Shown: one piece after another, positions 3,901 to 51,271 of the stretch | Layout of the letters: every line of letters starts with the position of its first letter | How positions within the stretch are numbered: the first letter of the stretch is position 1 | Source of the DNA: Pandoraea pneumonica | GTDB taxonomy: Bacteria > Pseudomonadota > Gammaproteobacteria > Burkholderiales > Burkholderiaceae | Direction of reading: 5' to 3' | Length of the DNA stretch: 64,000 nt | NCBI RefSeq assembly: GCF_902459645.1 | Contig: NZ_CABPSK010000004.1 | Location: 310,001 to 374,000 of the forward strand | The notes under the pieces: model-generated | Databases searched by the model: none | The model's input: only the letters and a program-made list of their open reading frames with translations | Told to the model about the DNA's origin: nothing | Program-made: the position numbers and the translations under genes

Positions 3901-4219
3901 CGCCATGCTTGTGCAGGTCGAGCGCGCAGTTCAGCGCGGTCTGGCCGCCCATGGTCGGCAGAATGGCATCCGGGCGCTCCTTGGCGATGATGCGCTCGAC
4001 GACTTCCCACGTGATCGGTTCGATGTAGGTCACATCGGCCGTATCCGGGTCGGTCATGATCGTGGCAGGGTTGCTGTTGATCAGGATGACCTTGTAGCCT
4101 TCCTCGCGCAGGGCCTTACAGGCCTGTGCGCCGGAATAATCGAACTCGCATGCCTGACCGATGATGATCGGGCCGGCGCCGATGATGAGGATGCTCTTAA
4201 TGTCTGTGCGCTTTGGCAT
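971..4219 (-). CDS. carB: Carbamoyl-phosphate synthase large subunit
   Basis: A 1082-residue protein beginning [22 protein letters not shown], the full length of the family. It makes carbamoyl phosphate from bicarbonate, ATP and glutamine-derived ammonia for arginine and pyrimidine synthesis, in the cytoplasm with CarA. The two homologous synthetase halves are visible: the first begins at [19 protein letters not shown] and the second near residue 560 at [19 protein letters not shown]. Each has ATP-grasp motifs ([14 protein letters not shown] and [13 protein letters not shown]). The C-terminal MGS-like allosteric domain ([24 protein letters not shown] onward) is complete. It is transcribed with carA and a LysE-type exporter, in the order carA-lysE-carB. 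Confidence 0.98.
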
Positions 4220-46493: not shown

Positions 46494-48314
46494 TTACGCG
46501 GAGGTTTCAGCAATGAGATCGGCCTGCTGCGCCTGCCACATGCGGGCGTACAGGCCGTTGCGCGCAAGCAGCGCCGAGTGATCGCCGATGTCGACGATAC
46601 GCCCCTGCTCCATCACGACGATGCGATCGGCGCGACAAATCGCCGCAAGCCGGTGCGCCACGACGACACAGGTTGCCCCTGCGCGTTCGTGAGCGAGACG
46701 GCTGAGAATGCGGGCTTCGGTGAGCGCGTCGAGCGCGGCGGTCGGCTCGTCGAAGAGCAGCAACCGTGGGCGTCCCCACAAGGCGCGCGCGATGTTCACG
46801 CGCTGGCGCTCGCCACCGGACAGCCCCGCGACGGCGATCGTTTGCGGCACTTCTGCGACCGCCGTGACGCGTGTAAATTCGTCGCGAACGTCGTGAGCGT
46901 CGGGCAGCGCTGTGTCGGGTAACCCGGCCCGGTAAGCCACGTTCTCGAACACCGTCCGATCGAACAGGCGGCAGTCCTGTGTGACGAAGCCTGTCACGCG
47001 GCGCAGTGCTGCCGCAGAGGCGCTGTCCAGCGGATGTCCGTCGATATGTAGCTGCCCGTGCGTCGGCAATGTGAGACCGGCCATCAAACGCAATAACGTG
47101 GATTTGCCAGCGCCTGAAGGACCGACGATGGCCACGTATTCTCCCGGGCGGATGCTAAGGCTAACGCGCGCGACGATGGGCATCCCCTCGGCGGTATCGA
47201 CACCGACCTGATCGAAGTGAATACGTGGGGCGTTTTCCGATGACCCACGCCGTGCCCCCATCTCACCGGCTTCCTCGTGAAGCGACGACCGCACCGGGCC
47301 ACTCTGCTGCGTCTGCGCCACCGGGTCGCTCGCGGCATCGCGCAAATGTTCATCGACGCTCACCAAGGCCCTCGCCACCTGCGACACTAACGCCCCCAGC
47401 ATCGCCGCAGGCAATGCAAATTGCAGCAGATACGCGTTGATTTGCACCAACGTGCCGACCGGCTCCGCGCCTCGCATCACATCACCAACTGCGAACAATG
47501 TCATGGCCGACACCCCGAGCGCCATGATCGCCATCTGACACGCGCTCGTGGCCTGCGCAGTAGCCGCCGTGGCAAGCGCCGCGACGTAGCGAGTGTGCAG
47601 CCGCTGCGACAGCCGCTCGATTTCGGCAGGTTCCTGCGCGAACGTCTTCACACATTCGAGTTGACCCAGCGTGTCGGCCAACGCGCCCATCGTGGTGCGT
47701 GAAATCTCGTTCGCATGCGCCTCTCTGCGTGTGACGCGCGCAAGCGACGGGCGCAACGTCAGCACATAAGCCCCCACGGTGACACCGAGCAGCACGCCAT
47801 AGATCGCGCCGAAGTTGAGCGTCAGGATGATGCCGGTAGCGAGCACTTGCACGGCCAACGGCAGCAGACCGAACACCAACCCCGTCACAATCACGGGCAA
47901 CGCCACTTCAACGCGAAAGAGACAATCGAGTGCCTGCCCCGCATTCACTTCACGCGCGCGATGGGCCGGTAAGTCGACGAGCCGCGACAAGTACCCCAAC
48001 GCCGTGCGCCGCCGCAGGTCTTCCATGGCACGCTGAATCAGCAAGTCTTTGCCGCGCTCGCCGATGGCGGCGGCCGACCACAGCGCCACATATCCCACCG
48101 CCAACGGCATCGCGAAGCCTACGGCGCGCTCCCCCGTCAGGGCATCGACGGCAAGCCCAAGCACCCAAGGGGCCACCAGCCGCAACGCGAGCATCAACGC
48201 CGCAGCCAGTGCGGCTATCACCACCCAGCGTCGATGACGCGACGTTTGCGTCTCACGCGCCCATAACTTTATGAGGACGAAACCGAGCGCCCGCCAAGCG
48301 GCCTGTCGTGTCAT
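46494..48314 (-). CDS. ABC exporter of the lasso-peptide cluster (D protein)
   Basis: A 606-residue half-transporter with an N-terminal six-helix membrane domain (residues about 25-320) and a C-terminal ATPase. Walker A is GPSGAGKS at 398-405, followed by the signature LSGGERQRVNIARALWG, Walker B LLLFDEPTAALD, and the H-loop VVAHRLA. It would export and give immunity to the mature lasso peptide, as McjD does for microcin J25. Its ATG at 48314 overlaps the synthetase stop (ATGA), so it belongs to the lasso operon. The open frame reaches 48 codons further upstream into the synthetase gene, but the start at 48314 gives the family-like N-terminus. The linker near residues 330-360 is unusually polar. 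Confidence 0.92.
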   Translation of the reverse strand: MTRQAAWRALGFVLIKLWARETQTSRHRRWVVIAALAAALMLALRLVAPWVLGLAVDALTGERAVGFAMPLAVGYVALWSAAAIGERGKDLLIQRAMEDLRRRTALGYLSRLVDLPAHRAREVNAGQALDCLFRVEVALPVIVTGLVFGLLPLAVQVLATGIILTLNFGAIYGVLLGVTVGAYVLTLRPSLARVTRREAHANEISRTTMGALADTLGQLECVKTFAQEPAEIERLSQRLHTRYVAALATAATAQATSACQMAIMALGVSAMTLFAVGDVMRGAEPVGTLVQINAYLLQFALPAAMLGALVSQVARALVSVDEHLRDAASDPVAQTQQSGPVRSSLHEEAGEMGARRGSSENAPRIHFDQVGVDTAEGMPIVARVSLSIRPGEYVAIVGPSGAGKSTLLRLMAGLTLPTHGQLHIDGHPLDSASAAALRRVTGFVTQDCRLFDRTVFENVAYRAGLPDTALPDAHDVRDEFTRVTAVAEVPQTIAVAGLSGGERQRVNIARALWGRPRLLLFDEPTAALDALTEARILSRLAHERAGATCVVVAHRLAAICRADRIVVMEQGRIVDIGDHSALLARNGLYARMWQAQQADLIAETSA

Positions 48315-50062
48315 ACGGCGCCCGCGCGCCAACCGCGTACGAACATCTCGATGGCATAAAGGCGACGAATCGTCGTCATGGATTCGAGATGATGGTGTGC
48401 CATGCGGCCGATCGCACGGCGGCACGCGTCGCGGTCGATCCACCCGGACGCCGCGCAATAGCCATCGAGACAGACCTCCTCGACATGCGCCAGATTCGCG
48501 GCGGCGCCCGCCCCCACCATGCCCGTCAACACGCCCTTATCGCGCCGCCACACATTCGGCAGTCCACTCGCCAGATATGCGGCACGGCGCAACGGCAGCC
48601 GGTTATGAATGGCGTTGAACAGCCGATAGGTCGGCATCGCCAGTCCTGCCTCGACGACCGGTTGCGTGAGAAATGGGAACACCGTGCCCGCTGACGCCAG
48701 CGATGGCTGCACTTCCACGTCACGCAAGTTGCCGAGGATGCCCAGAATCTGTGCCCGCTTGCCGGGACGCATGCGTAACGCCCATCGAGATAGCCAGGCG
48801 GCCGCCAGCGGTTCCGTGCGCGGGGTATCGGCGATGCGGGCGGCTGTCGTCAGCAGCCCGGTCGAGAGCGCCGCATCGGGGTTCGCATGACGCTGACGAA
48901 GTTGCCCGAATGCGCCTTGCGCCACCGCCCACAACGGCAGCCGCTGCATGACGGCCAAGTCCCGCCATGCGCTGAACGCGCGCCGCCATTGCCCGTCGGC
49001 CAGTGCATCGACGAAGGCCCCGTTGGGCGGGGGAGCGAGAAAGATAGCGTCGCCGCCGTGTCCGTTCACGAGACGATGGCCATGGTAGTCACGCAATCGC
49101 TCACGCACGGCGTCGAGCTGCGCCAGCATGCACAGATGCAGCGCGGGGCGCGCAAGACGAGGAATCGCCGCCGCGGGCGAGAACGCGGTGCAATCGATAT
49201 CGAGCCGCTCGAAGGCCATGCTCACGTGTCGCGCGACGCCCCCGGCATGATGCGACTCATCGCTCGACGGCGACGTCGGGTCGCGATGATTGATCGCCGT
49301 GCAGGCATGCGCACGGCCCGACTCCGCGAGTGCCAGCGCCAGCGATGTCGACTCCACGCCGCCGGAGAGCTCCAGCACCGCAGGCCGGTCGCCGACGCTA
49401 CGCTCGACCGAGCGCCGTAACAGCCGCAGCACGCCCTCCCCTGACGCGACGTTCTGCGCTTCTTGATCCGGCATCCGCCACTCCGGCCACCACACTACGC
49501 GTGTTTGCGGTGCGCCGCGCTCAGGTATCCAGAGCGCGTGTCCCAGCGGCAGGCGCTCGACGTCGTAGAGCGCACATTGCACGCCGCCCAAATCGCCGTG
49601 CACGAGAAATGACTTCAACGCGAGGCTATCGAAGCTGGGATGTTCGTCCACGAGTGCCGCAGGGTCCGCCGCCAAATGCACGGCACCGTCCCGGCAGAAG
49701 CGGTAGTACGTCGGGCAATGTCCGCACGGGTCGCACAGCACGATCGTCGTACCGCGCCAACGATCGTGCACGATCACGCGGTAGTGCCCCCAGTAGCGCT
49801 GGACAAAGCGCTCGGGCGATTCAAGTGCCAGTCTCGCGACGTCCATCCCGGTGGACACTTCCCGCCCGTCTTCCTTGAGAAACAACGTGCCGCTGATGTA
49901 CCACGCCAGCAATTCACTCTGCCCGCTCGAATGACGGCGTGTGCTGTCGACGCCCGGGCGAATGCGAGCAACTGGCGCGCCGTCGAGACCGCGCATCACC
50001 ACCGCGTCGGGAAAAGGTTCGTGCCGCTCGGCGGGTCCCGGGCGTAGGCGGGCAAGTTTCAT
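48311..50062 (-). CDS. Lasso-peptide macrolactam synthetase (asparagine-synthase-like C protein)
   Basis: A 583-residue homologue of asparagine synthetase B. The N-terminal half resembles the Ntn-type glutaminase domain but lacks the catalytic Cys-2 (it begins MKLARLRPG), as expected for lasso C proteins. The ATP-pyrophosphatase loop is LELSGGVESTSLALAL (SGGVES at 233-238), followed by the VNGHGGDAIFL motif and C-terminal ATP-site residues (RDKGVLTGMVG). It would adenylate the side-chain carboxylate of the core and join it to the core's N-terminal amine. GGAG lies six bases before the ATG at 50062. Frames upstream of that ATG are open but not homologous. It starts 98 bp after the B protein gene. 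Confidence 0.93.
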   Translation of the reverse strand: MKLARLRPGPAERHEPFPDAVVMRGLDGAPVARIRPGVDSTRRHSSGQSELLAWYISGTLFLKEDGREVSTGMDVARLALESPERFVQRYWGHYRVIVHDRWRGTTIVLCDPCGHCPTYYRFCRDGAVHLAADPAALVDEHPSFDSLALKSFLVHGDLGGVQCALYDVERLPLGHALWIPERGAPQTRVVWWPEWRMPDQEAQNVASGEGVLRLLRRSVERSVGDRPAVLELSGGVESTSLALALAESGRAHACTAINHRDPTSPSSDESHHAGGVARHVSMAFERLDIDCTAFSPAAAIPRLARPALHLCMLAQLDAVRERLRDYHGHRLVNGHGGDAIFLAPPPNGAFVDALADGQWRRAFSAWRDLAVMQRLPLWAVAQGAFGQLRQRHANPDAALSTGLLTTAARIADTPRTEPLAAAWLSRWALRMRPGKRAQILGILGNLRDVEVQPSLASAGTVFPFLTQPVVEAGLAMPTYRLFNAIHNRLPLRRAAYLASGLPNVWRRDKGVLTGMVGAGAAANLAHVEEVCLDGYCAASGWIDRDACRRAIGRMAHHHLESMTTIRRLYAIEMFVRGWRAGAV

Positions 50063-50160
50063 GGCTGGCTCCGTACTTGGATGGGTGAAGATTCGGAGAA
50101 TCGATGCGCGCGCGGGGACGTCGTGCATCCATCGCGCGTCAGATGCGGCACTGCGACCGC

Positions 50161-50922
50161 TTAGGCCGGGGTCTCGTAGATCACGGCGAGTTGGTCGCGT
50201 CGGCGCAGGTCGTCGCCGATCACACGCGAATCGCTCTCGGTCCACGCGTGCGCATAGAACGGCTGACGCTGCACTCCGATTACCAGCCGGAGTCGCAGGC
50301 CGTCGCGCGCGCACCATGCGGCCAGCGCGGCATACCACGGCAGACACGGCGAACATTGCGGATATACGAGCGCGGCGCGGTGCATCGCCGCCACATAGGG
50401 CGAATAGTCTTGTGGCGTGCCGTACTGCGTTCGGTGATCGGCTTGCGCGCGCGTCACCATATCGACGACACCGTGCATTCGCGCGCGCCGGGTCACGCGC
50501 TGGGCCTGCCAGAGCCAGTAGCCTGCGCGCACGACATCGCGAACCCGCGGCACACGCGCCACATCGGCGGGCATCGCCAGCCAAGCATCGAACCCGCCGC
50601 GCGGTGCCAAATCGCGCGCCGCAATGCGAGTATCTGGTGTGGTGCGTGCCATCGGCGCCAAAATGCCCTGCGCCTCGAACATCGCCTGCGTGGCGAGCAG
50701 ATCGTCGGCCGTGATGCCGACGTCATGCGGCCAGCCGATCAGTTGGCGCAACGCCTGCGAATGGTGATAGGAGAGATTGAAATAGCGGTCGTGCGAGAGG
50801 TTGAGCGCCACTACGTGCCGGTCGATACCTGCGATGTGGACGTCGGGTGCCAGATGGCGGAAAACCGGCGCGTCCGCACACGCGCCGGAGCCGATCAGTG
50901 TCGGGTCGGACACCTCAGGCAT
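50161..50922 (-). CDS. Lasso-peptide B protein: RRE fused to transglutaminase-like leader peptidase
   Basis: A 253-residue two-part protein. Residues about 15-90 resemble the PqqD-like RiPP recognition element that binds the leader ([24 protein letters not shown]). The C-terminal half has the cysteine-protease pattern of lasso B2 proteins: [14 protein letters not shown] with the likely nucleophile C193 (C190 nearby), a [10 protein letters not shown] strand, and the histidine in AHAWTE at H225. It would cut the leader from the precursor. Proteobacterial lasso clusters usually carry the two parts fused, as here. GGGGAG precedes the ATG at 50922, and the start overlaps the precursor's last codons by eight bases. 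Confidence 0.92.
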
Positions 50923-51097
50923 TGCTCCCCGTGACGGGTGGCAACGTGGGAATACAAAGCGGCTTGAAGCACAGCGGCAACAGCGTGATGCCCTCCGCGT
51001 CGTTGCCGAGTACGCCGCGCGTCGCATGCGTGGCATCCACCGAGGCGAGCAATTCGAGTTCGGTCACTTCTTTCGCCGTTGTCATGGCCTTATTCAT
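50915..51097 (-). CDS. Lasso-peptide precursor with a long, two-cysteine core
   Basis: A 60-residue precursor. Leader residues 1-27 are acidic-helical ([19 protein letters not shown]) and end with Thr at -2, the residue required by lasso maturation. The core is residues 28-60 (33 residues). It starts with Gly-28, and Glu-35 at core position 8 is the likely partner for an eight-residue macrolactam. Cysteines at core positions 16 and 21 (segment PLCFKPLC) could form a disulfide in the tail. The tail after the ring is 25 residues, exceptionally long. Length, cysteines and ring all fit pandonodin of Pandoraea norimbergensis as I recall it; an exact match needs checking. AAGGGG precedes the ATG. 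The stop overlaps the B protein start. Confidence 0.93.
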
Positions 51098-51121: not shown

Positions 51122-51137
51122 CGGACGACATCGTCCG
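51122..51137 (-). promoter_or_regulatory. Inverted repeat in the lasso precursor leader
   Basis: CGGACGA-CA-TCGTCCG is a perfect 7-bp inverted repeat, 25 bp upstream of the precursor ATG. A possible minus-strand -10 (TATGAT) lies just upstream at about plus-strand 51147-51152, with only a weak -35. The repeat could be an operator near the start site or a hairpin in the 5' end of the mRNA. Confidence 0.4.
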
Positions 51138-51237
51138 CGTCTTCATCATAGGAAACGGGTAGCTGTGCATTGATGGGAATTTTCCGAACGGATGAGACGC
51201 GGCGGCGACGTCTTTTCGGTTTTCGGAGGTGGAAAGC

Positions 51238-51271
51238 AAAACGCCCGTGAAGGCTTCCTCACGGGCGTTTT
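51238..51271 (-). terminator. Intrinsic terminator after mltD
   Basis: A perfect 13-bp stem (51238-51250 with 51259-51271) encloses an 8-base loop. The arms are AT-rich at the base, giving a T-rich run on the minus strand. It lies 50 bp after the mltD stop and separates mltD from the lasso operon. Confidence 0.85.

Follow-up and report, generated by a model that had tools for sequence, protein, structure and literature searches.

The 64,000-nucleotide stretch of the Pandoraea pneumonica genome analysed here (contig NZ_CABPSK010000004.1, positions 310,001 to 374,000 of the forward strand; hereafter the window, whose own positions are used throughout) almost certainly carries an intact chromosomal operon for a class IV lasso peptide of the pandonodin type. 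Four genes, which we call panA–D, lie in order on the minus strand, and all four open reading frames (ORFs) are full length and begin with ATG. When the precursor was searched against PDB chains of at least 20 residues, the pandonodin chain 6q1x was the single match up to E = 10; it aligns with precursor residues 28–60, with 29 of the 33 core residues identical (E = 4.9e-16). Together with the presence of all four genes at the same chromosomal site in 10 of 32 Pandoraea genomes, this match argues that the arrangement is not due to chance. On sequence comparison, the window operon is a close natural variant of pandonodin, a sibling of the described peptide and not a new kind of system. Its parts are as follows.

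50915..51097, minus strand: panA-type lasso precursor gene, 60 residues (leader 1–27, core 28–60), from the ORF and the 6q1x match
51017..51097, minus strand: leader peptide, 27 residues with Thr at position −2, from the sequence
50918..51016, minus strand: core peptide, 33 residues, with a predicted ring Gly1–Glu8 (Glu8 codon 50993–50995), from alignment to 6q1x
50969–50971 and 50954–50956, minus strand: codons of Cys16 and Cys21, predicted to form a disulfide in the tail, from alignment to 6q1x
50161..50922, minus strand: panB-type leader peptidase, 253 residues, with its ATG at 50922–50920 and an 8-bp overlap with panA
50063..50160, minus strand: gap between panB and panC, exactly 98 bp, of a length that is not conserved
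48311..50062, minus strand: panC-type lasso cyclase of the asparagine-synthase fold, 583 residues; the PP-loop SGGVES is residues 233–238
46494..48314, minus strand: panD-type ATP-binding cassette (ABC) exporter, 606 residues

An earlier sequence-only reading of this DNA had proposed the order A-B-C-D with overlaps at A/B and C/D and a 98-bp gap between B and C, and a precursor with Thr at −2, Gly1, Glu8, Cys16, Cys21, a 27-residue leader and a 33-residue core. The ORF coordinates and the precursor sequence agree with it on each of these points, and the C/D junction is a common ATGA that gives a 4-bp overlap (48311–48314). The same reading counted 25 residues after the ring. The count is correct, but the pandonodin literature divides them: one source (PMC13352647) counts an 18-residue tail within the 33 residues of pandonodin, so that the stretch after the 8-residue ring comprises a loop of 7 and a tail of 18. 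Among the 11 loci measured, window included, the B–C gap ranges from 31 to 127 bp, and we accordingly rejected the idea of a conserved element within it.

Profile searches identified the enzymes. PanB scored 61.5 bits against NF033537 (lasso_biosyn_B2; cut-off 33) and 63.7 bits against PF13471 (cut-off 26), and its residues Cys190, Cys193, His225 and Asp237 are unchanged in 11 sequences. PanC scored 47.7 bits against PF00733 (cut-off 21), its SGGVES motif aligning with the SGGVDS loop of guanosine monophosphate synthase (PDB 2ywb), and PanD scored 117.3 bits against PF00005 and 44.8 bits against PF00664, in keeping with the asparagine-synthase-like cyclase and ABC exporter named in the sequence-only reading. 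According to PMC13003496, in a chimeric construct based on the precursor of pandonodin, PanB cuts off the leader and PanC forms the isopeptide bond. Pandonodin has reportedly been expressed in E. coli BL21 (PMC7549694). If the window species follows pandonodin, which has been characterised experimentally, PanB would remove the 27-residue leader after Thr26-Arg27, and PanC would activate Glu8 with ATP and close an isopeptide ring onto the Gly1 amino group, with the tail threaded through it. A disulfide between Cys16 and Cys21, within the tail, would then make the product a class IV lasso peptide, the class to which pandonodin itself, with its tail–tail disulfide, is assigned in PMC13352647, and PanD would export it. 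The predicted product has a computed monoisotopic mass of 3299.73 Da (core minus H2O minus 2H), corresponding to 1650.87 for [M+2H]2+ and 1100.92 for [M+3H]3+, and reduction of the disulfide would add 2.016 Da.

The precursor is conserved where such a product would require it, a lasso precursor needing Thr at −2, Gly1 and an Asp or Glu at 7–9. Thr−2, Gly1 and Glu8, at precursor residues 26, 28 and 35, are together with Cys16 and Cys21 invariant in all 11 full-length precursors found outside the relic loci described below (the window and 10 orthologues), while nine of the 33 core positions vary among them (3, 6, 7, 12, 18, 20, 28, 31 and 32), positions 31 and 32 in the window only. The precursors left in relic loci are different. 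Those of genomes G010 and G014 (G and L numbers are our handles for genomes and loci) carry Met in place of Thr−2 and have lost both Glu8, to Gly in one case and Asp in the other, and Cys16; that of G005 keeps all five required residues and has lost other core residues that are invariant elsewhere, N5, L25 and T29 among them.

We also compared the ratio of non-synonymous to synonymous differences (pN/pS) along the operon, pooled over 45 pairs from 10 intact species; these values rest on few sites and non-independent pairs and carry no confidence interval. The ratio was 0.145 for the core and 0.365 for the leader; within the core, the ring had 0.058, residues 9–15 had 0.233 and the tail had 0.184. 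The tail is itself uneven, with 0.351 for residues 16–21 and 0.117 for residues 22–33. On this pattern, the far end of the tail (the last 12 residues) probably has a function. The alternative, that the long tail is a tolerated leftover without one, gains from the loosely constrained residues 16–21, which show that the tail is not wholly constrained, and from PMC8498205, which describes pandonodin tails that bear mutations or fused proteins and that the processing enzymes in some cases still recognise. Residues 22–33 nevertheless lie below the leader and below panB (0.261), panC (0.177) and panD (0.244) on the same measure, and with the caution due to so few sites we consider a functionless tail unlikely. 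Since the processing enzymes tolerate tail changes in some cases, the constraint on residues 22–33 would reflect a role in the action of the peptide.

The operon lies between genes for a LysM lytic transglycosylase and an acyl-CoA synthetase, which we take to be mltD and prpE and which were matched in 32 and 31 of the 32 Pandoraea genomes, respectively. The genomes compared include P. iniqua, P. capi, P. anapnoica, P. aquatica, P. anhela, P. commovens, P. horticolens and P. communis. All four pan genes are open with ATG starts at this site in 10 of them (G000, G002, G004, G006, G009, G015, G016, G022, G024 and G026), relic loci are present in six (G001, G003, G005, G010, G014 and G019) and 15 have no operon. 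In the remaining genome, G027, A and D are intact, but the panB start reads ACG and a frameshift near codon 199 divides panC into two reading frames; this damage (L047, around 4039-4054 and 2537) could be sequencing error. Protein searches gave matches to PanB in 15 of the 32 genomes at E ≤ 0.001 (in G012 only by a weak match on another contig), to PanC in 16, and to PanD in at least 11 at E ≤ 1e-80, with up to 40 candidates per genome scored. We compared the mltD–prpE stretch of 14 of the 15 operon-free genomes (G018, of 1.2 Mb and with no prpE match, was left out) with five operon sequences by blastn, and found matches only at the ends adjoining mltD and prpE. The exception, G029, has operon matches of 36–60 bases on the opposite strand. 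In the same genome (L077), mltD and prpE are separated by approximately 13.6 kb of other DNA at the place that the operon occupies in relatives. In a sample of 398 family genomes, genus included, the best PanB matches outside Pandoraea are 33–38% identical over most of their length, and a motif filter applied upstream of them picked out candidate precursors that are short and do not resemble pandonodin. An origin from a phage or plasmid was rejected: the precursor had no match in 50,697 phage records and no confirmed relative in viral contigs, 10 plasmid records hold only distant (<60%) lasso B proteins, and across the genus the locus has the same pair of neighbouring genes.

In all six relic loci, gene A is altered, truncated or gone and gene D is gone or in fragments; panB is open only in G001, while panC is open and full length in five, belonging to two separate clades, and gone in G003. 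In G019, a deletion of A and B brings the operon promoter right in front of panC; G005 has no panB, and its panC begins 36 bp past the stop of panA. The P. anapnoica genome (G001) shows an in-frame deletion of 35 codons at L045:2233-2310, which removes the last part of the leader together with most of the precursor core. In a FastTree tree built from the two flanking genes, G010 pairs with G014 (support 1.00) and G001 with G019 (0.70); G005, G003 and the operon-free G013 fall close to G010 and G014. The D junction of G005 looks like that of G010 and G014, and G001 and G019 retain different pieces of D. Given these clades and the junction apparently common to G005, G010 and G014, the relics point to at least two separate losses, one in each clade, on the assumption of a single acquisition of the operon.

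The orphan panC copies are at L064/L087 (G005), L071/L094 (G019), L045 (G001), L048 (G014) and L049 (G010). Between G010 and G014, the ratio of non-synonymous to synonymous substitution rates (dN/dS) for panC is 0.14 (95% bootstrap interval 0.09–0.22), compared with 0.42 and 0.64 for the remains of panA and panB, whose intervals are wide (0.19–1.10 for panA and 0.26–2.47 for the N-terminal part of panB); Fisher tests of panC gave p = 0.03 against A, 0.0015 against B and 0.0007 against the two combined. The values for panC are likewise 0.14 between G001 and G019, and 0.18 between G005 and either G010 or G014. Simulated neutral decay of the pairs G010–G014 and G001–G019 (200 runs for each of four mutation schemes) gave mean dN/dS of 0.62–1.00 and never a value below 0.34, which leaves neutral decay of these ORFs unsupported. 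Constraint seems weaker than in intact copies: five close pairs of intact panC have values of 0.03–0.10, with distant pairs reaching 0.16, and single-branch estimates are 0.12–0.18 for orphans versus 0.02–0.07 for the intact relative. At 408 columns invariant in the 10 intact species, the orphans of G001, G005, G010, G014 and G019 carry 5, 19, 25, 21 and 15 changes, respectively.

Among these changes are losses of motif residues in four of the five orphans: G235D in the PP-loop occurs in G001 and G019, E237A in G001, K509N in G019 and D338N in G010 and G014. The roles of D338 and K509 in PanC are assumed from related enzymes; the motifs changed by G235D and D338N are presumed to be essential for binding ATP or Mg. 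These changes disfavour a still-active cyclase in the four relics concerned, but not in G005, which keeps its motif residues. From these substitution patterns, panC seems to have stayed under genuine, if relaxed, constraint once the pathway and probably its catalysis had been lost. The inactivation may instead have been late or partly independent, as panB is still open in G001 and G235D could have arisen twice. A second, non-catalytic role for PanC, which would then be a pseudo-enzyme retained from the lasso pathway, is suggested by dN/dS of approximately 0.14 in two sister pairs even though the members of each share a motif change (G235D in one, D338N in the other); we think this quite unlikely.

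Several results weigh against a working lasso pathway in the window. PanC falls far below the cut-offs of the curated NCBI lasso cyclase families (94.7 versus 300 for NF033561 and 25.8 versus 525 for NF033535), and we therefore do not claim it as a member of either. PanB had been described in the sequence-only reading as a peptidase with a RiPP recognition element (RRE). Its B2 peptidase domain is above cut-off, but Pfam and NCBIfam profiles gave no RRE match in the N-terminal part, and the PDB sequence search gave no relevant match. The lasso product of the window species is a prediction from its genes, and the operon is often lost in the genus and so dispensable, given relics in six of the 32 genomes, damage in a seventh and no operon in 15. 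It is thus conceivable that the window operon, complete in sequence, no longer functions, like those of the relic-bearing relatives. In line with this, six genomes hold relics only, G027 carries damage in both B and C, and the window changes G31S and H32N occur in none of the 10 other full-length non-relic precursors, Asn32 being found also in relics G010 and G014. We nevertheless regard loss of function as very improbable: no ORF is shortened or lacks its ATG, PanC retains its SGGVES, GGD and DKG motifs, and panC dN/dS is 0.04–0.05 when the window is compared with its three closest relatives, indicating strong constraint. An intact pandonodin-type operon remains the reading we prefer.

The region upstream of panA was aligned across 14 loci (10 with intact operons, G027 and three relics, G001, G010 and G014), with the following features.

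51122..51188, minus strand: conserved promoter-like block, from the alignment of 14 loci
51173–51188, minus strand: TTCGGAAAATTCCCAT, a 16-mer forming part of this block
51144–51155, minus strand: TTTCCTATGATG, which contains TATGAT
51122–51137, minus strand: inverted repeat CGGACGATGTCGTCCG, 16 bp, downstream of the possible −10 box and upstream of the panA ribosome-binding site
51240..51271, minus strand: terminator-like hairpin that ends the upstream mltD-like gene and separates it from panA, from the sequence and its conservation in the 14 loci

The arrangement of TTCGGAAAATTCCCAT, 17 bases and TTTCCTATGATG is almost invariant in the 14 loci, and TATGAT may, from its sequence, be the −10 box; a generic promoter scan gave no sigma-70 match, and the hairpin is absent from the list of a simple terminator scan. 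Of the 14 loci, the window alone has a perfect copy of the inverted repeat. The promoter block was also considered as the common element of a regulon, and this was rejected, as the exact 16-mer occurs once in the window genome, with five further places matching at two mismatches.

In addition to a normal pandonodin locus, Pandoraea sp. PE-S2T-3 (G022) carries a second lasso locus, L060 (also recorded as L017 and L050). Here a single ORF of 123 residues (L060:7410-7781) contains two tandem leader–core units, each with Thr at −2, Gly1 and Glu8 and with junctions ATHATQ/GGGGQENE... and ATQATK/GYDGNWFE.... Genes for a B protein and a C protein follow it, the latter with the motifs GGD and DKG and the PP-loop, and nothing homologous to D was found near the three genes. 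No further double-core precursor was present among the 299 family genomes examined. Among the matches listed in the open-licence literature, which leaves most subscription papers outside, no title or abstract start concerned a double-core lasso precursor.

The orphan panC and the double-core precursor are more surprising than the operon itself. With 11 full-length precursors at one chromosomal site, pandonodin gains a natural sequence family in which variable and fixed core positions become visible, and the constraint at the far end of its tail predicts that its function depends on that region. The losses, for their part, amount to a natural experiment on the death of a lasso pathway, in which exporter and precursor are damaged together and the cyclase gene stays open.

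Pandonodin was reportedly described by Cheung-Lee, Cao and Link in 2019. Its exact core is present in three related genomes, G015, G016 and G022, of which G016 (a single contig of 6,167,370 bp) is presumably P. norimbergensis. The window proteins are 82–83% (B), 92–93% (C) and 80–83% (D) identical to those of the three genomes. The sequence-only reading had suggested that the operon was the pandonodin locus or a close variant of it, and had proposed comparing precursor residues 28–60 with the pandonodin core; that comparison supports the second possibility. Operon type and site are alike, but four core differences and flanking genes only approximately 90% identical in nucleotide sequence to those of the three exact-core genomes rule out the P. 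norimbergensis pandonodin locus itself.

The window operon thus has in common with pandonodin the ABCD gene set and a 33-residue core with G1, E8, C16 and C21, identical over residues 1–19. It differs in belonging to another species and in four of the 33 core residues (I20L, L28V, G31S and H32N, from pandonodin to the window), all within the tail. The second locus of PE-S2T-3 is more distant, with B and C 56% and 57% identical to those of the window, and is set apart by its double-unit precursor and by the lack of an adjacent D. LP2006 and the felipeptins are actinobacterial and shorter. Like the predicted window product, these class IV peptides have a single disulfide within the tail, as given in PMC13352647 and PMC9266682.

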